Shown here in pieces: positions 8,924 through 34,737 of a stretch of 38,092 nucleotides of DNA (within the stretch, counting starts at the first letter, position 1; the number at the start of each line of letters is the position of its first letter). Position numbers and translations under genes: made by a program. The notes under the pieces are model-generated. The model saw nothing but the letters and a program-made list of their open reading frames with translations. It made no database searches and was not told where the DNA came from. Source of the DNA: Phormidium tanganyikae FI6-MK23 (GTDB lineage: Bacteria; Cyanobacteriota; Cyanobacteriia; Leptolyngbyales; Leptolyngbyaceae); NCBI GenBank assembly GCA_019359175.1, contig JAHHHU010000030.1, forward strand, positions 1-38,092, written 5' to 3'.

Positions 8924-10579
8924 GTGACGCAATTGGACTGTTTTCCCTACGGTGCGGGGCATGGCGAAGAAGGAGTCTGTCTTCTCGTTCGCATGGGTCC
9001 TTATCGAATTTTGCTAGACTGCGGGCTGGCAGATATCTCTGCGCTTGCTGATTCAACCGCGATCGAACATTTAAGCGATCGCGCTCCCGCTGATGTGGTG
9101 TTGTGCAGTCACGCCCACTCGGATCATGCTCAAGGATTGCTTAGTCTGCATCGCGCTTTTCCCCAGTTGCCAATCTATGCGAGTGAAGCAACGACGCAGC
9201 TTTTACCGCTGAATTGGCTGGATGAACCGGGGCGCGTTCCTCAATTTGTTCATGCGCTTCCTTGGCGATCGCCTGTTGAGTTTCAGGATGGATTGACCGC
9301 CGAACTTTTTCCCGCTGGACACCTTCCAGGAGCAGCGGCAATCTTGCTGACTTATACACCTCCTGATGGTCGATCGCATTCGATCTTATATACAGGCGAT
9401 TTCTTTTTATCAAATTCTCGATTGGTGGAAGGCTTGCGCTTAGAGGAATTGCGGGGACTGCGCCCGGATGTCGTGATTGTTGAAGGAACGTATGGAACGG
9501 CACGATTTCCACATCGACGACAACAAGAGAATCTGATTGCAGAAAGAATTAGTCAAGCGTTGAACGATCGACATTCTGTTCTCTTGCCACTGCCGATGGT
9601 CGGACTCGGACAGGAATTGTTGATGCTGCTGAGAAGTCATCACTTATTCACTGGACGGGATTTAGATATTTGGGTCGATGGTACGGTGGCATCTGGGTGC
9701 GATGCGTATTTGGAACTGTTACTGCACTTGCCCGCATCGGTTCAGAATTTCGCCAAACATCAGTCGCTTTTTTGGGACGATCGAGTCCGTCCACGGGTTC
9801 GGAGATTGCACCCAGAACAGCGATCGTTAGTTAGTGAATCGCCTTGTATTGTACTGACGGATTTCTCGATCGATTGGCAAGAGTTCTGCGAAGACACGCC
9901 GGAACGCTGGTTAATTTTACAGCCGCATCATTTAGAGGGAGAATCGATCGATGTCCCGCCAGAATATGCGATCGAAACTTATTTACTGGCTCAACATTGC
10001 GACGGAGCCAGCACTACACAGTTTATTCACAACTTGCGCCCACAGCACGTCATCTTCGTCCACGGTGATCCGAACTATCTATCGGACTTGACCGGACTCG
10101 ATGAATTGCACAATCGCTATCATCTGCATTCTCCAGCATCGGGAAGTTTAGTAGAGTTACCGATCGGGGAAACGTTCCTCCAGCCTGCACCCCCGGAGAC
10201 GACTTACGAAGGGGAGCTTGCAGAGTTTGGAACGGTTGTGACGATTACCCTGCCCGATGCGATTACGAATGATTCGAGATGGCGATCGCTGTCTGATACG
10301 GGACTCGTCGAAGCGCGTTGGCAAGGTCAAGACCTGATTTTACGGGGCTTGACTCAGCGCGAATTAATGACTCAGAACAATGAGCGATCGTCTTCTTGGG
10401 ACAGCGCAGAAAAAAACTGTTGTTTTCGTTGTCGGCACTATCGTGGACAACGCTGCTGGAATCCAGCTTCTCCGTTATTTAACTTCAAAGTGACATCGGA
10501 TGGGTACTGTCCAGCGTTTGAGTCGGCTCAGAGCGAGGTCGAGCCGACTCGTGAAGATGTGGATCAAGCTCCGGGATAG
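8924..10579 (+). CDS. MBL-fold metallo-hydrolase, CPSF/RNase J-like
   Basis: A 551-residue metallo-beta-lactamase-fold protein. The zinc site is visible as SHAHSDH (62-68), with further ligands expected in [10 protein letters not shown] and ILYTGDF. The segment [15 protein letters not shown] resembles the beta-CASP insertion of the CPSF73/Ysh1 RNA-processing group, and HVIFVHGDP near residue 380 supplies a late His. The C-terminal Cys cluster ([16 protein letters not shown]...GYCP, about 495-530) may bind a metal. A nuclease acting on RNA is the likeliest role; this is inference. The start is a GTG at 8924 after a GGTGG sequence. The 3' end overlaps msrA by 16 bp convergently. Confidence 0.85.
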
Positions 10580-11208
10580 CAGACTTTCGTGCCGCCTAAA
10601 CCACAGTAGCCATTCAGATTTTTAGCAAGATACTGCTGGTGGTAGTCTTCAGCATAGTAGAACTCAGGCGCGTCTAGGATTTCGGTCGAAATCTCTTTGT
10701 AGCCTGCTTTCGCAAGTTCTTCTTGGTAGGTCTTCAAGGATGCTTCGGCGGCTTTGTGCTGCTCATCGTTGTAGACATAAATGCCCGATCGATACTGCGT
10801 TCCGACATCGTTTCCTTGTCGCATTCCTTGAGTCGGATTGTGGCTTTCCCAAAATACTTTCAAGAGTTGCTCATAGCTGACCACTTTTGGATCGTAAGCA
10901 ACGAGAACGACTTCATTGTGTCCGGTCATGCCAGAGCAAACTTCTTGGTAAGTCGGATTTGGGGTGCTGCCTGCGGCATATCCAACGGCGGTTGTGTACA
11001 CGCCTTCTTGCTGCCAAAATTTACGCTCTGCGCCCCAGAAGCAACCCAGACCAAACACCGCAGTTTCGATTCCAGCAGGAAATGGAGGTTGCAGGGGATG
11101 ACCATTGACGAAATGCTTCGCGGGAACAGGCATTTTTGTCGATCGACCTTTCAGCGCTTCATCCGATGAAGGAACGGTGAGCTTTTTGCCAAATCCAAAT
11201 AACACCAT
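10564..11208 (-). CDS. msrA: Peptide methionine sulfoxide reductase MsrA
   Basis: MsrA reduces the S form of methionine sulfoxide in proteins, repairing oxidative damage. The 214-residue protein has the catalytic motif GCFWGAER (C56), [26 protein letters not shown] and the ending [18 protein letters not shown] with possible resolving Cys residues. A cyanobacterial N-terminal extension of about 45 residues precedes the core. It is a single gene, convergent and overlapping by 16 bp with the MBL-fold gene. Confidence 0.96.
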
Positions 11209-11324
11209 TTGCTTTTACTCTCATGTTCATACTTCTTAATTTTAGCGTGAACTTCGATCGAGCTTGGTAGGGGTATCCGGTGTGAGGTTCTTGCAGTTGT
11301 GTTTTGGGCAGATCGCCCGAACGA

Positions 11325-12428
11325 TTACTTACACTTCAGTTTGGCTGAGTTGATCTGAAATTGAATTGTAGAGATTCGACTTTTTCCTGATAATTCTTGT
11401 GCGCCAAATAGGTAGCCATCTTCTTTCAATTCATCTACTGTGCGCCAGAAGATCTGATTATTTCGGGAAGAGTTGCTGCCGAATAGATCGAGGTTTTTGA
11501 ATAAGTATTGCTTCGAGACAGAGATGAATTGTCCATCGGTTAGATTGTCCCATTTCAGCCGACTAGCTAAGTAGATCAAGAGCTTCGTTTTATAATCGCA
11601 TTTTGCATTACTTCCAAGTCGCTGAGTAATGTCGAACTGATTTGGAAAAAGAACATAATCTCCATTTCGAGAACTGTCGAAAAATTCTAGAGAAATTGTA
11701 TAAGAATCAGCCAATTCGTAAGTGTAATCTGCGGCTTTTGTAATATCGAAATCTCTCGGAGCGCTATCTACTTCGTAATCTTTGATCCGTAGAATGCTTT
11801 TAATCATGACCTTTGCGCCACGATTTTGATTCATTTTCTTGAACGATTGAGCTAACACTAATTCAGTTCGATGAAGCGCGACTAAATCTCGATTGAGTTG
11901 CGATCGCAGTTTCGACGCAAATCCCCCATCTTTCGTCCGCGTATAGCCCAAGGTCTCTAATAAATCATTCGATCGAAACGTTACTGTCCCACCATTTTGC
12001 TGTTGTGCAGCGAGTTTATAAAGGTAAAGCACGATCGAGATTTGGCGCGGATTGAGAAACGTCATCAACGCCATGAACATTCTTTGAATACGTCGATCGT
12101 GGACTTTTTCTAATCCATTGCTCACCCCTTTCTGCACACAAGCCGCCCAATCGAGCTTGGCATATTCGGTTTTCAATTCTGCTAATTCTTCTTCGGTCAA
12201 ATTCTCTAGCGGCACTCGTCGAATCACAGAAAATTCGCTTTCGTCGCGAACATCCGCTTCGACCCGCATTTCCAAGTAATACCCATCCACATCCGATCTC
12301 AAAATCGGCAATCGCACATCTGGATTTCGTACCGATGCCCCAGCTCTGGGCAATACCATCAAGAGTTGGCTATCGACTGGAAAGGCTGCTTCTAGTTGTT
12401 TCATCGCTGGTGAGATTGTGAACCCCAC
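11325..12428 (-). CDS. Putative winged-helix replication-associated protein
   Basis: A 367-residue protein without a confident family name. The pattern is that of plasmid initiator-like proteins with winged-helix DNA-binding regions: PRQISIVLYLYKLAAQ followed by VTFRSNDLLETLGYTRTKDGGFASKLRSQLNRDLVALHRTELV (about 140-205). A second similar region holds CDYKTKLLIYLASRLKW, ISVSKQYLF and WRTVDELKEDGYL (about 280-350). It is divergent from the large Rep protein across the repeat-bearing region 12429-13070, an arrangement expected for a replication initiator or its regulator. Those roles are inference from motif and position. Confidence 0.6.
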   Translation of the reverse strand: MGFTISPAMKQLEAAFPVDSQLLMVLPRAGASVRNPDVRLPILRSDVDGYYLEMRVEADVRDESEFSVIRRVPLENLTEEELAELKTEYAKLDWAACVQKGVSNGLEKVHDRRIQRMFMALMTFLNPRQISIVLYLYKLAAQQQNGGTVTFRSNDLLETLGYTRTKDGGFASKLRSQLNRDLVALHRTELVLAQSFKKMNQNRGAKVMIKSILRIKDYEVDSAPRDFDITKAADYTYELADSYTISLEFFDSSRNGDYVLFPNQFDITQRLGSNAKCDYKTKLLIYLASRLKWDNLTDGQFISVSKQYLFKNLDLFGSNSSRNNQIFWRTVDELKEDGYLFGAQELSGKSRISTIQFQINSAKLKCK

Positions 12429-12539
12429 ATATAGTGCCCTACCCTCGGAGATTTGTCTAGAGGTAAAACGCTATATCTGGGGGCCTAGTGTCTGAGCGAT
12501 TCGATCTGACCCTATTGGTAGTAGTAAGTTTACGGAGTC

Positions 12540-12728
12540 CTGTAACGCTTGCGTCTGAATTCGATCGCGTTTTCTGTAACTTTCGCGTCGATGATCCAGG
12601 TGATTTGCGCTCCTTATTTTATGCGATCGATCCACCCGAAAATCCTAAACTTTGCGCCGCTTTGCCTATTCCTCCGCCGTTCTGTTTTCCTGCTAACACG
12701 CCCGTATAAATCGCCTGTAACTCTAGCG
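12540..12728 (+). repeat. Three iteron-like 14-bp direct repeats
   Basis: CTGTAACGCTTGCG at 12540-12553, CTGTAACTTTCGCG at 12574-12587 and CTGTAACTCTAGCG at 12715-12728 share CTGTAAC plus GCG at fixed spacing. The starts are 34 and 141 bp apart. All are on the same strand between the two divergent rep-type genes, where initiator-binding iterons would be expected. The middle four positions vary. Confidence 0.55.
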
Positions 12729-12963
12729 GATCCCTGATCCACTCCCTCTTGAGCCTTTGATGGATCGGTGTTAATCTGCTTCTCACGTCGGAGATGTCTA
12801 CCACCATTGTCTGACGGAACCTTGTTTGTCTCGAATCAGATTAGTGCGATTTTGGGCGACTACCACCGCTACAAGTCCGCCAATCAGATTTTTTTCAAAT
12901 CCAAAAGCAAAACCCCTCAAGCTTCCCTACCACAGTCAGCCAAAGGGGTTGATAACCTTGTTT

Positions 12964-12981
12964 GCCCAAAAAAGATTGGGC
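12964..12981 (+). other. Small hairpin GCCCAA-AAAAGA-TTGGGC in rep leader
   Basis: A perfect 6-bp stem with a 6-nt A-rich loop lies 90 bp upstream of the Rep start codon, next to the AACCCCT/AGGGGTT inverted repeat. There is no T tract, so it is not a standard terminator. It could be part of a leader controlling rep expression, or chance. Confidence 0.3.
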
Positions 12982-13070
12982 TTGATTTCTATGTTGAAAC
13001 ATTGTATCAGGTGCAGCAATTCTGCGCTAGGTTTGCGTGCGAATTTATTGATTCAGAAGGAGCAGGGCTG

Positions 13071-16000
13071 ATGGTAACTTCCCTCAGAGTTGCTTCTTCT
13101 GGAGCGGCAAAACCGATCGAGGGCGATCTCGCTCCCGATCACGAACAGGAATGGTTGATGAGCGGAGTCGATCCGGAGATTATTCGCCGGAATGTACGAT
13201 CGCTGCAAGATACCGACTTTGATCCGTTTACACACGAAGCGAATTATCCGATCGCGGAGTTGCTGAATTGGAAAGTGACGCGATTTGGACAACAGGCGCG
13301 GGAATCGGTTCGAGGCTGGTGGGTGAGCGGAGTCGATCCGCTGAACAATTGGCAGCGAATGGATTGGGGACGGTTTAAGCCGGATACGCCGATCGTCGAT
13401 CGTCAGAAAAACAGGTCTGCAAAATATCTGAGTCCCAGTCTCGGTAAAGGGTCTAGCCGATTCATTCTGCTCGATGTGCCGATGCGGATTTGGATGAAAG
13501 TTTCCGCACGATTTGAGGTCGAAATTGCTGGAGCGACGAACTTTTGGGAATGGGCTTGGCGAAATAATTTGCCGATCGTACTTACCGAAGGAGAGAAGAA
13601 AGCGGGCTGTTTGTTGAGTTTGGGCTATCCAGCGATCGCGCTTCCGGGAATCTTCAGCGGTTACCGACGCGAGACTCGGCAACTGATCGCAGAATTGGCG
13701 CATTTCGCGACGGCACAGCGATCGATTCACATCTGTTTCGATTATGAAACGAAGCCGAGAACCTTACAAAATATCTTTCTTGCTACTTCTCGTTTAGGGC
13801 AACTGTTAAACCATGCTGGCTGTCAAGTTAAAGTTATTGCATTGCCGGGTGCTGAAAAGGGCGTTGATGATTTCGTTGTCGCTCGTGGTCATGATGCGTT
13901 TACACGACTATATGAATCAGCGGTCGAGCTTGAGTTCTGGCAAGCATCACAATTATGGTCATTAACCTATACACCTTCACTTACACTAAATCAGCCGTAT
14001 TTGGAAAATCTTCCTTATCCGGAGTCTGGATTGGCTTGTATTAAAAGTGCCAAAGGAACTGGAAAAACAACGGCATTGCAAGGATTGATCAAGAACTCCG
14101 TTGCCCCTGGCACAGCGGAAGCTGACCGAAAAGTTCTTGTGATTACACATCGAATTCAACTCGGTAAAGCGATTTGCCATAGTATCGGAATTGATTGGAT
14201 CACCGATGCGCTGAATTCTGAAAATTCGAATAGCTATGGCTTGTGTGTCGATTCGCTGCATCCAAACTCGAAAGCGCGTTTTAATCCAGCGGAATGGGAA
14301 GGCGCGATCGTCATTCTCGATGAAGTGGAGCAAGTGTTGTGGCACGCGCTCAATAGTGCAACTTGCTATCATCAGCGCGTCAGAATCTTAGAAACATTGC
14401 GCGAACTGATCGAAATTGTTCTCGAAACGGGTGGATTAGTTGTTGCACAAGACGCGGATTTATCTGATGTCAGCATCGACTATCTGCGCGGATTAGCGGA
14501 AACTCCCGTTACACCTTGGGTTGTGGTGAATCAGTGGAAGCCCGAAATTGCTTGGGATGTCTCGATGTACGACACGAAAAATCCTGCACCGTTAATCGAT
14601 CGGATGGAAACCGTTCTGAAAACTGGAGCCGTTTTCGTCTGCGTCGATTCTCAGAAAGTTCGCGGTCGTTGGAGTTCCAAGAACTTAGAAACGTATCTGC
14701 GATTGCAATTTCCTGAAAAGCGGATTCTCCGAATCGATAGTGAAAGCGTTTCTGATCCTGATCACGCGGCTTATCACATTGCTGAACGCATTAACGATGT
14801 AGTTGGCGATTACGATATTGTTTTGGCGACACCGACGATCGGAACTGGAGTCTCGATCGACATTCGCAATCATTTCAAAGGCGTATTCGGAATTTTCCAA
14901 GGTGTCACACCAGATTCTGAATCGCGGCAAGCATTAGCGAGAGTTCGCGAACCAATTCCCCGATATGTTTGGGCGGCGCATTTTGGCCCTGGAAAAGTGG
15001 GGAATGGAAGCTGTAACTATCGAGATGTCGCGCAATCGATCACGAAATCGGTTCGATATAACATTGCATTGCTCAAAGATATCGATTTTGATTTGGATGA
15101 GCAGAGTAACCCGATTGCGCTTCGGACTTGGGCAAAGATGGCGGCGCGGGTAAATGCGTCTCTATGGCGTTACCGTCGCGAGTTTCGGAATGGTTTATTG
15201 CTCGAAGGTCATACCGTGACACTGGTTACAGACGATCTCACTAAGATCTTCGGACAGTTACCGATTACTGATCAAATGCACCATGAACTGAAAACGGGCG
15301 TTTTGAACATTCCAGGATTTGAATTTTTGGAAGTGCAGCACGATTTGAAAGTGTGCGATCGCATTGCTCAAGTGATTTCTGCGATTCGTACCCGCAATCA
15401 AACCGCAGAAGCGATCGCAGTTTCCGATTCTCCAGAAATCACACCTGAAGAATATTACGAACTCAAAGAACAAGCGAATCAAACCATTCAGAAACGCCAC
15501 AGCAAACACAAACACGAACTGAAGCGGAAATACAACGTCGAAACCATCACGCCAGAGATCAAACTCAAAGATGATGATGGTTGGTATACACAACTGCGAT
15601 TGTATTACTATCTCACTCGCAATCCAGAATATGTTCGCCTTCATGATATGCAAGAGCTTGAAGACCATCTAGAGCGCGGAGATGGAAAGATTTCTGTTCA
15701 AGATGTCAAGCTGTTAACAGCGCAAGTTGAGGCATTACGATCACTAAAAATTCTAGAGTTTCTTAAACCCGGAGAAAAAATTCTCGCCACCGATGATCTC
15801 GTTCAATTCGTTGCCACCACTGCGCTAGAGTGTCGCGACGATATGAAAGCATTGTTTAGCTTCACCGTAACCGAGAAACTTGCGCCGATCGCGATCGTTC
15901 AAACATTGCTCGGCAAAATCGGAGTGAAACTTACTTGTACAGGTCGTGCGGTTGCGCCCGATGGACGACGCGGCGGATTGCGAATCTATAAGTACTTTCC

Positions 16001-16133
16001 ACCAGAAGACGATCGAACAACCATCTTGGCGGAATGGGAAAAGCAGGATCTCGCCATGCTGCAAACGCTGATGGAAGTGACGGGCTGTAATGATTTCTCG
16101 GAAATGGATGAATGGATTGAGCGATCGGCTTAA
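13071..16133 (+). CDS. CyRepA1-type plasmid replication protein (DUF3854 and helicase)
   Basis: This 1020-residue protein resembles the large cyanobacterial plasmid Rep proteins (CyRepA1 family). An N-terminal region with HEQEWLMSGVDPEIIRRNV leads to a Toprim-like DUF3854 domain with VLTEGEKKAGCLLSLGYPAIALPG (E at about 173) and HICFDYETK, consistent with a primase-type centre. A helicase-like half follows: Walker A KGTGKTT (about 329-335), DEVE box VILDEVEQVLWH (about 417) and LATPTIGTGVSID (about 585), then a long charged C-terminal region. The ATG at 13071 is chosen because AGAAGGAG precedes it and the frame upstream is not protein-like. Such genes normally sit on plasmids; here it lies among chromosomal genes. 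Confidence 0.8.
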   Translation: MVTSLRVASSGAAKPIEGDLAPDHEQEWLMSGVDPEIIRRNVRSLQDTDFDPFTHEANYPIAELLNWKVTRFGQQARESVRGWWVSGVDPLNNWQRMDWGRFKPDTPIVDRQKNRSAKYLSPSLGKGSSRFILLDVPMRIWMKVSARFEVEIAGATNFWEWAWRNNLPIVLTEGEKKAGCLLSLGYPAIALPGIFSGYRRETRQLIAELAHFATAQRSIHICFDYETKPRTLQNIFLATSRLGQLLNHAGCQVKVIALPGAEKGVDDFVVARGHDAFTRLYESAVELEFWQASQLWSLTYTPSLTLNQPYLENLPYPESGLACIKSAKGTGKTTALQGLIKNSVAPGTAEADRKVLVITHRIQLGKAICHSIGIDWITDALNSENSNSYGLCVDSLHPNSKARFNPAEWEGAIVILDEVEQVLWHALNSATCYHQRVRILETLRELIEIVLETGGLVVAQDADLSDVSIDYLRGLAETPVTPWVVVNQWKPEIAWDVSMYDTKNPAPLIDRMETVLKTGAVFVCVDSQKVRGRWSSKNLETYLRLQFPEKRILRIDSESVSDPDHAAYHIAERINDVVGDYDIVLATPTIGTGVSIDIRNHFKGVFGIFQGVTPDSESRQALARVREPIPRYVWAAHFGPGKVGNGSCNYRDVAQSITKSVRYNIALLKDIDFDLDEQSNPIALRTWAKMAARVNASLWRYRREFRNGLLLEGHTVTLVTDDLTKIFGQLPITDQMHHELKTGVLNIPGFEFLEVQHDLKVCDRIAQVISAIRTRNQTAEAIAVSDSPEITPEEYYELKEQANQTIQKRHSKHKHELKRKYNVETITPEIKLKDDDGWYTQLRLYYYLTRNPEYVRLHDMQELEDHLERGDGKISVQDVKLLTAQVEALRSLKILEFLKPGEKILATDDLVQFVATTALECRDDMKALFSFTVTEKLAPIAIVQTLLGKIGVKLTCTGRAVAPDGRRGGLRIYKYFPPEDDRTTILAEWEKQDLAMLQTLMEVTGCNDFSEMDEWIERSA

Positions 16134-27861: not shown

Positions 27862-29119
27862 TTAATTACGAGTGTTGCTTATTCTCGCTCCAGCCGCATC
27901 GCTGCAAAATGCTCCTGCAACAAACGATGAATAAATCGGTAACGTCCACAATCCTAATCCTAAACCGATCGCCATCCCAAAACTGATGCCAACAATCAAG
28001 TTTGGAATAACGCCATCCAGTGAATGAAGTCGTAATACTGGAATTAATCCCAAAAAAAGTCCAACAGTAGCTCCCCAAATTGACATAAAGGTAAATAAGT
28101 TAGTTGCAGTTCTACGAATCCCCTGGTTCGGCACTAATTTTTCCTCAATGTCTGAACTTTCCACAATTCCATTCATTAAGCCACACCAGATTCCGCTTCC
28201 AGTCCCAAAAAATAGCCCTAAAATTAGAAAGATTATTCCCAGCACTCCTTTTTCATTAAGAAGGTATTGAATCCTATAGCCAACTCTTCCAGAGTTAGAA
28301 GAGTAGCAATTGAAGCTACGAATTTGTGCAAGATATTCTGCAAATGCTAATCCAGAAAGCATTCCTTCTCTGAATCCTTTGCCAAACGATCGCCAAGACC
28401 ATTTAAGAGTTTCAACAGTTTTAATCTTTGTGTTAGATTTTGTCGCTATTCCTAAGCACAATCCTATTAAAGCAGTAATAATCGAAGCTAAAGTTCCAAA
28501 AGTTAAATATAGAGGTATTGCAGAGCTCAATGCTAAAGCTATTCCAATCAACAGACGGTTGAAAACTTTGTAAATGAAATACCAAAATGGGCGATTTGTT
28601 AGCCAAGATGGTTGTATTGCTTCAATTAAAAACTCGGTTTCGGACTCACTTTGCATCTGCTGTGACAAGCGAACTAGATACGAAATAGTTTGCTTGTCAG
28701 TTGGTAATGACGTTTGCTTATAGATGTTGCGCGGTAGTTCTCGCTTTAGCATCCGACGAATATAGGCATTTAACAGAGCATGAAACCGCGCCTCGGTTGT
28801 AAGATGTCGCCAATCTAAAATCTTTAGTTCCTGCTCTGCCAAGATAACAATGCTGAGCCAAAATGGAGTTCTCACTAATTCCAGCAGAATCGAATCTCCC
28901 TGAAAAATTTTCCACAGATCCTGGCGCTGCAATCGTATTAGGTGATTTTGAATCTGCTGATCTTTGAGAGGCTTAACATAGATCGCTCCATTCAGTTGAA
29001 ATTGGGTTTTGCGACTGCGGTACTCCTCATCTCGGCTGCATACTACTAAATCTTGCGGACGGTATTCGCTTTCTAGTAATTGATTAATTGTTTGGATACA
29101 AGACCCTTGAAGCGAACTT
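27862..29119 (-). pseudogene. NACHT-type NTPase with membrane domain, 5' end removed by IS
   Basis: The frame continues from the IS left end with GSCIQTINQLLESEYRPQDLVVCSRDEEYR, which matches the segment just after Walker B in cyanobacterial NACHT NTPases. It then has KDQQIQNHLIRLQ, LVRTPFWLSIVILA, the NACHT C-terminal helical part (ARFHALLNAYIRRML) and a membrane domain with several Gly-rich helices (about residues 115-345 of the internal Met frame). The Walker A part and the N-terminus are absent, and no continuation is seen beyond the IS. NACHT proteins of this type are STAND ATPases, some of them antiviral. This one is broken. Confidence 0.75.
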
Positions 29120-30121
29120 TTCGAAAGTGTCAGAATTAAGACTTAGATGTCGAGCGAAATTCACTGTCTCTGATGCTTTATGGACTGACCTAAAACTGAA
29201 TCCCCATTCTGCTTTGATGAACTGCCCCCATTGTCATTTCTCGCTCACCACTCAACTGAAACGCACCACCAGCCTCGGCTATCAGACCTTCTACTGTCGA
29301 GAGTGTCTATCAAGCTTCAATGAACGTACCGGCAAGCGGTTCAACTTTCTAGAAGTGCCAACCGATATCGTATTTCAGGTGTTGATCTGTCGGTTGCGCT
29401 ACAAGATGAGTTTGCGGGACGTGGCGGAATTCTTTCTGCTGCGCGGATTTGAGTTCACGCATGAAACGGTGCGGCATTGGGAAGAACGGTTTGCGCCTCT
29501 GGTCGCCGAGCAACTGCGGACAAAGCGTGCGGGGACGATGGGGAGAACCTGGCACGTGGACGAAACTTACATCCGAGTCAAGGGGAGGTGGTGTTACCGG
29601 TATCGGGCGATGGATGAAGACGGCAATTTAGTGGACTCGCTGCTGCGGGAAAAGCGAGACATGGCATCAGCACAAGCGTTTTTCGAGCAAGCGTTAGAGG
29701 TGGCGCAAACGCCGCCGAATCGAGTGGTAACGGATGGATTGGCATCCTACCCCCGCGCCGTTTCAGAGGTTCTGGGTGAAGCGGTCATTCATGAACCGGG
29801 GAGTTGTTTGGACAACCCCATTGAGCAAGACCATCGCGGGATCAAGCACCGTTACTATCCGATGCTGGGGTTTGGGGCGTTTGATTCAGCAAAACGATTC
29901 TGCGCGGCATTTGAGGAAGTGCGACAGTATTTGCGACCCCGTTCACAAATGAGAGAATTCGTGTCCCTATCTGTGCGACGAACTTTGTTTGTTGAGCGAC
30001 TACAGGCGTTAGAAGTGATGTTTCAATCTGCTTAATCGAAATACTGTAGAAAGCATTCCTTTTCTCGTCAACATAGCCTTGGTTTTAGACCTTTTGAAGC
30101 TTCAATTCTGACACTTTCGAA
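29120..30121 (+). mobile_element. IS6-family insertion sequence, about 1.0 kb
   Basis: Perfect 18-bp terminal inverted repeats, TTCGAAAGTGTCAGAATT at 29120-29137 and its complement at 30104-30121, flank one transposase gene. The element has cut a NACHT-type gene. The 8 bp on each side (GCGAACTT and CAGATTAC) are not duplicates, although IS6-family insertion usually makes an 8-bp duplication. An adjacent deletion or recombination after insertion would explain both this and the missing 5' part of the NACHT gene. Confidence 0.85.
29217..30035 (+). CDS. IS6-family transposase
   Basis: A 272-residue DDE transposase. An N-terminal zinc ribbon (CPHCHFSL and YCRECLSSF) and a helix-turn-helix region (KMSLRDVAEFFLLRGFEFTHETVRHW) precede the catalytic core. 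The DDE triad is seen in HVDETYIRVKG, VVTDGLASYP and NPIEQDHRGIKHRYYPMLGF. The ATG at 29217 starts the zinc ribbon; the frame upstream runs into the left inverted repeat. The gene appears intact, so the element may be active. Confidence 0.92.
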   Translation: MNCPHCHFSLTTQLKRTTSLGYQTFYCRECLSSFNERTGKRFNFLEVPTDIVFQVLICRLRYKMSLRDVAEFFLLRGFEFTHETVRHWEERFAPLVAEQLRTKRAGTMGRTWHVDETYIRVKGRWCYRYRAMDEDGNLVDSLLREKRDMASAQAFFEQALEVAQTPPNRVVTDGLASYPRAVSEVLGEAVIHEPGSCLDNPIEQDHRGIKHRYYPMLGFGAFDSAKRFCAAFEEVRQYLRPRSQMREFVSLSVRRTLFVERLQALEVMFQSA

Positions 30122-32614: not shown

Positions 32615-33172
32615 ATGCCCAGCAACGGTTCCAAAAAATTCCACATCACGCTCCCATTTGTGGAGGGCAATGCGATCGAGGAAATCGCAACCGAACGGGG
32701 AGTTTCTGCTGCCCAAATCATTCGAGAGCGATTGAGCGAATGGCAACCACAAGCATCCACAAAGGAGGAACCCGCCCACACAATTCCACAATCTGACCTA
32801 TCCGAGTTCACCACCCAATTGCAACGGTTAGTTGAGCAGATGAATTTGATGGAGCAAGCAGTTCAACAATTGGCAGAGCGATCGACAAGTTCCAATCAAC
32901 CTGATCCACAAATTCGTGCCGCGCTTCAACCCGTTCACACTCGCTTGCAACAACTAGAAACACAAGTCGGAGTGATGGGGAATTTAATTCAACAGATTGT
33001 GCAGCAAATCGGCAAAGATCAATTGCGGCTAGAAGCTTGGTTAGAAGCGGTCTACGTGATCGTGCAACCGTTACTCATAGACAACCAACCGGAAGATATC
33101 CAGAAAAGGCGGCAGGAGTGGATCAAAGAACTTCAGCAACGCTTAGAACACCATTTAGAAACCTACAAATAA
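32615..33172 (+). CDS. Relaxosome accessory / MobC-like protein
   Basis: A protein of about 185 residues. The N-terminal segment (KKFHITLPFVEGNAIEEIATERGVSAAQIIRERLSEW) looks like a ribbon-helix-helix DNA-binding unit as in relaxosome accessory proteins. The rest is a long coiled coil with heptads (LQRLVEQMNLMEQAVQQLAER, LQQLETQVGVMGNLIQQIVQQI). The ATG at 32615 is preferred since the Pro/His-rich translation upstream is probably non-coding; no good ribosome-binding site is seen, so the start is uncertain. The stop is 2 bp before the relaxase ATG, which supports co-translation and a joint role. Confidence 0.65.
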   Translation: MPSNGSKKFHITLPFVEGNAIEEIATERGVSAAQIIRERLSEWQPQASTKEEPAHTIPQSDLSEFTTQLQRLVEQMNLMEQAVQQLAERSTSSNQPDPQIRAALQPVHTRLQQLETQVGVMGNLIQQIVQQIGKDQLRLEAWLEAVYVIVQPLLIDNQPEDIQKRRQEWIKELQQRLEHHLETYK

Positions 33173-33174
33173 CG

Positions 33175-34737
33175 ATGATTCTCTCGATCTCAAATATTTC
33201 TCCCACACATGGCAGCTACTACTACACGAAGGAAGGAAATTACCTAGATTTGTACGATTGCTCGAACTGGCATGGCAAGTTGATACAAACTCTGGATCTA
33301 CCGGAATCTGTAGAATCGCACCCTCTTGCTTGTTTGTTGCGTGGGCGATCGCCAACAGGAGAAACGCTGATTGATAAGTCGCGGTTGCATTCTCGATCGA
33401 CTCAGGATCAAATTAAAGAACGAGCAGGAATTGACCTAACGACCAGTGCGCCCAAATCTGTCTCGATTCAGGCGCTAGTCTTTGGCGATCGCAAACTAGA
33501 AGATGCTCACCAAACCGCCACAATCCGAATGCTGAATGTTTTAGAAGAACGGTATGCAATTACACGCCAGATGCAGAATGGTAAACGACAGAAAGTAATC
33601 ACAGGGCAACTTGCGATCGCACAATTTCACCACGACACCAGCCGCGAACTCGATCCACAACTCCATACTCACAACATCATCCTTAACCTTCAACGACTCC
33701 CAAGTGGACAGTGGCGCAGTTTAGATAATGCCGCGATTTATCAGACCAAGATGCTGTTAGGGCAAATCTACCGAAATGAACTGGCGCAAGAAGTTCAGCG
33801 ACTAGGCTATGAGATTCAGGTCACGAACTACCGTCTAGGATTGTGGGAATTGAAAGGATACTCCAGCCAACAACTCAAAGCATTCAGCAAACGGAGTCAG
33901 CAGATTCAGCAACAAGCTGGAGACGATGCAAGTAGCGAACACAAAGCCTGGATTGCCATTTCATCAGGACGAAAGACAAAACAGCAAGTGACTAGGCAGG
34001 AACTAGAAGCACTGTGGAAGGAGGATGCGATCTCAGTCGGGCTGCATCCTATCGTTGCTCAAGCACCTAGAGAAACAGCGAGATCGGGACTAACTCAAGC
34101 CATCACCTACGCCACGATCGATTACTTGTCTCAACACTCCACAGTTTTTCCACGAGAAGAAATTGAACGAATCGCACTGACTCAAATTGGGCAAATCAGT
34201 TTTGCTGCATTGCGAACCGCGATCGACCAGCACCCAAATCTAACGATTCATCTGAACGAGAAAGGGCAGCAACAATGTACCTATCAGAATCTAGAAATCT
34301 CTCATGACTCAACCTCGCATGATATTTGGGGACTTGCCCAGCAAGATTGTGCCGACTCGACTCCAAGGGTACGCTCAGACCGTTCCGAGTCAGCCGAAGC
34401 CCTCGAACAATTCCGCCAAGACCTCCGCACCCTTGCCGCCACCTGCCCAGGTATCTCAACTGAACGAAGCCGATTGGCAGGGGTGGAACCATTCGATTCC
34501 AGCGACTGCCGAGCAACTGGAGCGCCTGCAACAATGGCTGAAACCGCTTCCGATGACGCTGATTCAACTGAAACAACTGCTAGAAAATCATCAGAGGTCG
34601 ATCAGTCATGTAAACATGGTGGTCAGCAATCTGACGACGCTATACCAGGAGGAATTGACCGCGCCACTGGCAACGGGAATGAACAGCCCAACCCAAAGAC
34701 GGAGGAGCCTGAATTGGAGCGCGATCGCCATCATTAG
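33175..34737 (+). CDS. MobF-family relaxase (TrwC/TraI-like), no helicase
   Basis: Relaxases nick plasmid DNA at oriT and lead it into the recipient cell. The N-terminal 300 residues are a MobF domain: catalytic tyrosines in SYYYTKEGNYL (15-17), DLTTSAPKSVSIQAL (88-101) and the metal-binding HHDTSRELDPQLHTH (His152, His153, His164, His166). MobF relaxases usually continue into a large SF1 helicase; here the protein stops at 520 residues. Past about residue 385 the sequence is low-complexity and shares its DNA with the next gene in another frame, so the true C-terminus may be shorter. The ATG at 33175 starts the conserved MILSISNIS. Confidence 0.88.
   Translation: MILSISNISPTHGSYYYTKEGNYLDLYDCSNWHGKLIQTLDLPESVESHPLACLLRGRSPTGETLIDKSRLHSRSTQDQIKERAGIDLTTSAPKSVSIQALVFGDRKLEDAHQTATIRMLNVLEERYAITRQMQNGKRQKVITGQLAIAQFHHDTSRELDPQLHTHNIILNLQRLPSGQWRSLDNAAIYQTKMLLGQIYRNELAQEVQRLGYEIQVTNYRLGLWELKGYSSQQLKAFSKRSQQIQQQAGDDASSEHKAWIAISSGRKTKQQVTRQELEALWKEDAISVGLHPIVAQAPRETARSGLTQAITYATIDYLSQHSTVFPREEIERIALTQIGQISFAALRTAIDQHPNLTIHLNEKGQQQCTYQNLEISHDSTSHDIWGLAQQDCADSTPRVRSDRSESAEALEQFRQDLRTLAATCPGISTERSRLAGVEPFDSSDCRATGAPATMAETASDDADSTETTARKSSEVDQSCKHGGQQSDDAIPGGIDRATGNGNEQPNPKTEEPELERDRHH

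Follow-up and report, generated by a model that had tools for sequence, protein, structure and literature searches.

How does a replication module of plasmid type, in which a large replication gene faces a smaller divergent one across a repeat-bearing spacer, come to lie among the ordinary genes of a cyanobacterial chromosome, and does it still start replication there? The question is raised by contig JAHHHU010000030.1 of Phormidium tanganyikae FI6-MK23 (draft assembly GCA_019359175.1, 5.74 Mb in 77 contigs), which was analysed as a whole (contig C26; 38,092 nucleotides, hereafter the window). We propose that the gene pair and the region between its members form a chromosomally resident iteron replicon that is kept by selection and acts through the initiation mechanism set out below; taken as one statement, we regard this as evenly balanced, although its narrower core, that the locus is an iteron-type initiation module, is very probable. 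The analysis was computational and covered the anatomy of the module, the fold match of the initiator model, the iterons, the covariation of a stem-loop, conservation, and the chromosomal location in the genus. The features are listed in Table 1.

A predicted initiator gene with same-strand iterons

The fold of the smaller protein, as predicted, is that of the iteron initiators RctB, RepE and pi, with paired winged helices. Its AlphaFold2 model is of good quality (predicted local distance difference test 87.8, predicted template modelling score 0.90), and among 687 Foldseek matches at E≤10 the six at E≤0.001 are either RctB domains 2-3 (two chains) or belong to the RepE54 crystal series (four chains, one of which, 9z08, has a title giving no protein name). 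VIA ranks RctB (5tbf) at Z 12.7, RepE (1rep) at 11.5 and pi (2nra) at 10.2; the top 45 rows all lie at Z 10.0-12.7, and the first row that is not an initiator stands at rank 46 with Z 7.0. The protein matches no family in Pfam or NCBIfam, neither PHROGs nor profile and sequence searches of the PDB gave anything convincing, and a Pfam search with 72 members of its family at E≤1 listed 13 families, none of Rep type. Its longest frame, 11325-12428, starts at a GTG at 12428 and would encode 367 amino acids (aa); we favour the ATG at 12404 because in-frame stops lie just upstream of it in two genomes of the genus (G002 and G004).

Same-strand direct repeats lie beside this gene, beyond what chance would give. 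A repeat finder returned 3 direct 14-nt copies in the window, and the repeats of nine regions pointed to one motif with the core ACGCCGGAGTTACAGG, whose copies lie on one strand with recurring spacings; a matrix fitted to it finds four copies in the window, all on the minus strand. Across 82 regions (71 of the 80 loci collected, the window, 6 plasmid loci and 4 genus loci) the fitted matrix gave at least 3 iterons in 79, with 630 of 630 hits on the strand of the initiator (2.7 expected by shuffling), and it gave 48 hits in 2.0 Mb of sampled chromosome. Because this matrix had been fitted on the same regions, a held-out test was run with a matrix drawn from plasmid copies alone (L010-L012; L013 gave no site and was kept out of the held-out set too). 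At least 3 copies were then found in 70 of 78 regions at the loosest threshold, 6, and in 61 of 78 at both 8 and 10; at threshold 6, 536 of 538 hits fell on one strand, and none of 5300 background windows held 3 copies.

The spacing of the copies is also shared. Distances near 24-25-31/32-25-73-25-31/32-25-34, or parts of this series, occur in many arrays at plasmid and genome loci alike, and 60 of 79 arrays end with a spacing of 34. The spacings of the window (49, 92 and 34) recur in G002, G003 and G006, and among the genus arrays 34 comes last in all 8 regions, and 7 of them begin with 49 or 24. We also note an exact 11-nt direct repeat, AACCTTGTTTG, at 12818-12828 and 12954-12964, 136 bp apart and conserved in the genus alignment.

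On the other side of the spacer, the large protein matches the NCBIfam CyRepA1 model NF042913 with 430.1 bits over model positions 2-594 of 595, well above the curated cut-off of 200, and Pfam DUF3854 with 143 bits; it contains GTGKT (Walker A) and ILDEVE, and a PDB sequence search with it gave nothing convincing. Its open frame spans 12768-16133, and the ATG at 13071, common to all 8 rows of the genus alignment, yields a protein of 1020 aa. An earlier note, made from the letters of the contig alone, had described a CyRepA1-like protein with Walker A and DEVE motifs and an uninterrupted frame of 1020 codons, a divergent winged-helix-type protein, a repeat-bearing intergenic region and a chromosomal gene context, and all of these descriptions agree with the results given here.

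Table 1. Positions in the window of the genes, repeats and other elements of the module.
Feature	Position	Strand	Basis or remarks
Initiator protein, 359 aa (RctB/RepE/pi fold by model)	11325..12404	-	Open reading frame (ORF), upstream stops, model, fold matches, dN/dS
Candidate origin region between initiator and Rep	12405..13070	.	666 bp; alignment of 8 genus genomes
Iteron ACGCAAGCGTTACAGG	12539..12554	-	20.6 bits; 12.5 bits with plasmid-only matrix
Iteron ACGCGAAAGTTACAGA, 34 bp from the 12539 iteron	12573..12588	-	21.6 bits; just 6.5 bits with plasmid-only matrix
Weak iteron ACGGCGGAGGAATAGG	12665..12680	-	13.3 bits; 7.3 bits with plasmid-only matrix
Iteron CCGCTAGAGTTACAGG, 49 bp (24+25) from the weak iteron	12714..12729	-	20.0 bits; 12.5 bits with plasmid-only matrix
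CTACCAC repeat	12798..12804, 12860-12866, 12927-12933	+	3 copies
Conserved 48-nt stem-loop, loop core CCCTACCACAGTCAGC	12909..12956	+	Covariance hit of 66.9 bits; window row part of the model
CyRepA1-family Rep (DUF3854 and helicase motifs), 1020 aa	13071..16133	+	ORF, profile matches, genus alignment, dN/dS

The exchangeable partner and the stem-loop before it

At 74 of the 80 loci an ORF of at least 200 aa diverges from the initiator gene, and these partners are PrimPol-like (42), CyRepA1 (19), DUF3987 (8) or other (5); the count omits 6 loci with no upstream ORF of 200 aa, and a second method found a DUF3987-cluster ORF at one locus beyond it (L139). The PrimPol label is based on DxD and SGGxHxY motifs (PMC5862659 describes motif I as well as the His of motif II) together with weak hits, namely Prim-Pol in 3 of 20 members (best 5.7e-4), two primase PHROGs with one member each, and LigD polymerase in the PDB at E 0.14; the alignment of this cluster (A4) covers 20 of the 42. 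By sequence, the PDB gave nothing convincing for the PrimPol-like partner. A tree of the initiators, built by a quick method from 81 rows (73 of them with a partner label), requires 6 or more changes of partner, against a shuffled mean of 28.2; in it Leptolyngbya, Myxacorys and Phormidesmis group together, all with a CyRepA1 partner. The initiator alignment (A3) holds 71 of the 80 loci and the window; L152, L161, L162 and L164 were excluded, as were L156, L165 and L166 (internal stops) and L121 and L124.

The initiator is also found on plasmids. In PLSDB four plasmids have the initiator at 60-69% identity and two at 28-31%. The divergent neighbour on the four closer ones is DUF3987 (L010, L011), a PrimPol-cluster ORF (L012) or a CyRepA1-cluster protein (L013), and the two distant ones have DUF3854 (L086) or DUF3987 (L087) on the partner side with another ORF between. 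The initiator and its iterons are the constant part of the module and the large Rep is its exchangeable partner. PrimPol (archaeo-eukaryotic primase) and DUF3987 replication proteins of mobile elements, as described in part of PMC5862659, look like the two other kinds of partner, but here both are paired divergently with the same iteron initiator.

These findings bear on the idea that the module has been repurposed, the initiator now regulating transcription of its partner and the latter working in repair or fork restart. RctB represses its own gene, according to a portion of PMC6090056, and the window places the module in a stretch between recA, xseA and NurA on one side and leuC on the other, as might suit such a role; however, the array spacing is common to plasmids, and the partner swaps among three kinds of likely replication enzyme while the iterons and initiator stay. 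We consider repurposing improbable, and prefer to read the locus as a replicon.

The region before the partner gene has signals of its own. CTACCAC occurs in 50 copies on the partner strand and none on the other in 25 CyRepA1-type regions (8 from the genus), and the stem-loop is an element supported by covariation and without an Rfam match. Its loop is nearly invariant and its stem compensates, with double changes in 6 of 9 pairs (18 cells, against 8.3 in shuffles); its covariation score was reached in 0 of 500 shuffles, although the rows are related and this is therefore not a probability. The pair counts come from a gap-poor alignment (A6) in which the stems of some rows are shifted by 1-2 columns, so that the paired share comes out lower. 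With the genus rows only, RNAalifold gave no double changes because the region hardly varies there; the wider set showed them. A covariance search over 83 sources returned 32 strong hits, one each, of which 30 are rows of the model and 2 are new (L119, L167); all lie on the strand of the partner gene, in the spacer that separates it from the initiator. Of nine weak hits (<23 bits), seven coincide with these sites in the opposite orientation. The loop core, with up to 3 mismatches, is present in 34 of 82 regions (CyRepA1 17/25, PrimPol or other 17/46, DUF3987 0/11; shuffles 2/82).

Rfam gave nothing at E≤1 over 11200-13400, and a simple promoter scan found no sigma-70 site. On the minus strand a short run of T comes after the stem, and the resemblance of the element on the strand of the initiator to a terminator suggests a counter-transcript, which we propose by analogy with asRNA1 of pSYSA.

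Residence in the chromosome and selection

The initiator was found in 27 of 58 related genomes, including 26 of 35 from the family and 8 of 8 from the genus, where the seven other copies are 89-94% identical to that of the window. A close Rep (85-92% in the seven others) stands in the same divergent pair in all eight. The window carries genes of chromosomal appearance (recA, xseA, NurA, MgtE, a metallo-beta-lactamase (MBL)-fold protein, msrA, leuC and an RluA-family gene), and in G001, G003 and G006 the pair shares a contig of 5.7-6.3 Mb with dnaA and dnaN. In the genus, where the assembly is near closed, the module is therefore not on a chromid or plasmid, with recA and leuC in the window and dnaA and dnaN on the same contig. 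In the single-contig genome G031 the initiator, dnaA and dnaN likewise share that contig, and the partner is PrimPol-like.

Beyond these genomes the picture is more mixed. In a class-wide draw 90 of 388 genomes had the initiator at E≤1e-20. Twelve other genomes, of 2-50 contigs, had it on a contig other than that of the best dnaN match in 11 cases (G018, G066, G143, G164, G182, G205, G247, G276, G306, G329 and G332) and on the same contig in one (G349), and because of this separation the initiator may often be plasmid-borne in other lineages. Three genomes have two initiator loci each: Microcoleus FACHB-1515 (L131/L149), Drouetiella (L112/L151) and Nodosilinea LEGE 06152 (L121/L155). ParA/ParB-like genes, which cluster with the annotated ones of L011, lie near the module at L096, L097, L098, L101, L110, L115, L117, L127, L145 and L146, all in other genera and including a 7.7 Mb Adonisia contig (L146).

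Both genes are under strong purifying selection, which indicates that both proteins are used. For Rep the ratio of nonsynonymous to synonymous substitution (dN/dS, omega) lies at 0.043-0.083 and for the initiator at 0.023-0.053 (each over 15 pairs, from 6 of the 8 genus genomes), compared with the 0.029-0.080 of msrA (10 pairs, five genomes) and the 0.044-0.056 of the MBL gene (6 pairs, four genomes), with dS reaching 2 and partly saturated. The earlier note had taken Rep to be under selection and not a dead relic, and the dN/dS comparison among close strains, with frames open, upholds it; it had also named a large plasmid or chromid, or decay of Rep in sister strains, as grounds for giving up its view, and neither was found in the genus.

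The surroundings of the module are partly conserved as well. The MBL gene has one match in each of the eight genus genomes and lies beside the module or within 5 kb of it in the window, G002, G003, G005, G006 and G007; in both Phormidesmis genomes (G011, G027) it lies within about 2 kb of Rep, on the other side. The module has probably been resident since before the split of Leptolyngbya and Phormidesmis and has moved since, the alternative being separate insertions close to this gene. The replicon would thus descend from a plasmid type that still exists, would probably have entered the chromosome no later than the common ancestor of the two, and would have been kept there by selection.

A recently integrated plasmid or a decaying relic is, by comparison, very improbable. 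It is true that CyRepA1 is a plasmid Rep family and that deletion of slr7037 makes pSYSA integrate (as stated in part of PMC9978351), but the pair is present in 8 of 8 genus genomes with omega below 0.1 and a conserved intergenic region, and the MBL neighbour is near the module in Phormidesmis too; we reject recent integration and decay on this conservation and on dN/dS. Thus, of what the earlier note had offered, a plasmid-type module within a chromosome stands, and the integrated plasmid, if taken as a recent arrival, does not; a Rep taken over for chromosome replication, the other option of that note, may apply.

A mobile or excisable element that replicates solely as a circle, and is now integrated, is a further possibility that we think unlikely. 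In its favour, plasmids carry sister modules, the ParA/ParB-clustering genes are found near the module in some other genera, the window has a TrwC relaxase and an IS6 transposase at a distance of 13-19 kb, and the neighbourhoods in G001 and G004 are unlike those in the other genus genomes. On the other hand, no integrase or partition gene was seen among the 25 distinct window ORFs scanned (a part of all ORFs), the window has no tRNA gene, and the relaxase, at E 1e-20, is unmatched in 3 of the 8 genus genomes and lies away from the module in the other four sisters, while the msrA and MBL neighbours are common to the window, G002, G003, G005, G006 and G007. We therefore continue with a resident replicon.

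A candidate origin and its rivals

Fold and repeats together suggest how such a replicon would work. The initiator would bind the same-strand iterons, open the DNA and repress its own promoter, in the manner of RepE, pi and RctB. The opened DNA would then be handed to the divergent CyRepA1 primase/helicase candidate, which would load or replace the host helicase and prime synthesis. More tentatively, partner expression or priming may be limited by a counter-transcript that the stem-loop terminates, or by the stem-loop itself as a structured site. DnaA is probably not needed in this scheme, as its boxes show no enrichment: 2 exact copies against 1.1 expected, and 27 against 39.2 when up to 1 mismatch is allowed.

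Several observations weigh against the proposed explanation. The gene dnaA is present in 58 of 58 genomes searched, and dnaA and dnaN lie within 15 kb of each other in 10 of 26 family genomes with the initiator and in 2 of 9 without it (G008 had no dnaN match). The family can do without the module, which is missing from 9 of its 35 genomes. Some copies are broken: in G014 (L093) Rep, and in G016 (G016:C308) the initiator, is split between frames, internal stops occur in 3 of 76 initiator stretches, and fragments are found in a few genomes of the class, through decay or assembly error. The MBL gene is 1.6 Mb from the module in G001 and on another contig in G004, so that the neighbourhood differs in both. 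As to the fold, Foldseek template modelling scores by query length are 0.33-0.43 with root-mean-square deviations of 6.8-8.6, and identity to solved initiators is 10-14%. As to the iterons, the window has 4 held-out hits at threshold 6 and just 2 at 8 and 10; the fitted matrix found none at L129, L086 or L087, the last two being the distant plasmids; around the arrays, where mean AT is 0.48-0.60, no AT-rich unwinding element stands out clearly; and the genus array is short, with 3-5 hits in 8 regions against a median of 9 in the 74 others, of which 15 have 5 or fewer.

The short array brings in the main rival, plasmid exclusion, in which the chromosomal initiator and iterons rarely or no longer fire and act as a resident incompatibility device that titrates or handcuffs iterons on plasmids of its own type that enter the cell. 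The genus array is partly degenerate, yet its remaining spacings are shared; the same iterons are present on four plasmids of other cyanobacteria, and in the genome of the window a single initiator contrasts with 7 additional DUF3854 proteins encoded on other contigs. However, the large partner is under similarly strong purifying selection, and exclusion by iterons alone would not need it. We judge this device unlikely, albeit less so than the other rivals. An extra or conditional origin fits best, because dnaA is present throughout and both genes are under selection. That the module starts chromosome replication, at least under some conditions, falls just short of an even prospect.

A still wider proposal, that this is a working DnaA-independent origin, one device behind the multi-origin replication of polyploid cyanobacteria, in which initiator and iterons are a chassis that swaps CyRepA1, PrimPol-like and DUF3987 partners, is speculative and rather doubtful. 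Two signs of an altered origin were sought among the genomes. Loss of DnaA where the module is present was rejected, with dnaA in every genome searched. Breakage of the dnaA-dnaN linkage with the module was unsupported by the counts above, in which fragmented assemblies make the unlinked cases uncertain, and on these counts no association appears between the module and loss of the usual origin locus.

GC skew gave no significant two-arm signal, whole, at fourfold sites or in intergenic DNA, in samples of G003 (40 chunks), G006, G031 and the module-free G020 (20 each). Permutations were as good in 63, 16 and 18 of 100 for G003 (26, 6 and 14 with every second chunk only) and in 16-95 of 100 for the other three; in simulations on the noise of G003, a skew of ±0.03 was detected in 25 of 25 and one of ±0.02 in 21 of 25. 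Because the module-free G020 shows the same, the lack of a two-arm skew says nothing about the module. A regular two-arm skew is lacking in most cyanobacteria, according to the relevant part of PMC7198777.

The closest parallel is RctB/ori2 of Vibrio chromosome 2, together with RepE of F and pi of R6K. The initiator fold (by model), the head-to-tail iterons beside the initiator gene and the placing of a plasmid-type replicon among essential DNA are alike. In contrast, the present module lies inside a main chromosome that also has dnaA and not on a second chromosome, it has no enriched DnaA boxes whereas ori2 needs one (a passage of PMC6090056), it has a divergent primase/helicase candidate, and its initiator has no sequence-level match in the PDB by profile. 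The second parallel is CyRepA1 of Synechocystis pSYSA (Slr7037), to which the large protein is tied by exceeding the NF042913 cut-off. An antisense RNA lies just upstream of that gene, as reported in part of PMC9978351, and the module has its terminator-like hairpin at about that place, but the present Rep is chromosomal and paired with an iteron initiator.

Chromosomal CyRepA homologues are already published: Ohdate et al. 2024 found them in 80 of 145 cyanobacteria and, in the part of the article concerned, call for tests of their function (PMC10899382). The new part is the iteron replicon of an unnamed initiator family inside the main chromosome; the open-licence literature in PubMed Central yielded no description of the initiator, its iterons or the partner swap. 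Synechocystis 6803 and Nostoc 7120, which replicate independently of DnaA, resemble the genomes here in having no regular GC skew, and the relevant section of PMC7198777 calls their mechanism unknown. Chromosome initiation without DnaA in cyanobacteria is an open question, for which the module offers a concrete candidate origin and initiator on a main chromosome; a constant initiator with an exchangeable primase/helicase would also be useful for studying rewired helicase loading and for vector design.

Some further features of the genome are of note. Seven other DUF3854 (CyRepA-like) proteins lie on contigs C1, C12, C19, C34, C43, C51 and C57 of the same genome (G000); none is adjoined by the initiator, which has a single match there, and the genome may hold several plasmids. 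The IS6 transposase and TrwC relaxase (29088-30035 and 33037-34737) are near the right end of an otherwise housekeeping contig, and the top sister match of the relaxase, at 73%, is on G002:C75, away from the module. The best NCBIfam matches of the MBL-fold protein at 8924-10579 are beta-CASP nucleases, with scores below the cut-off.

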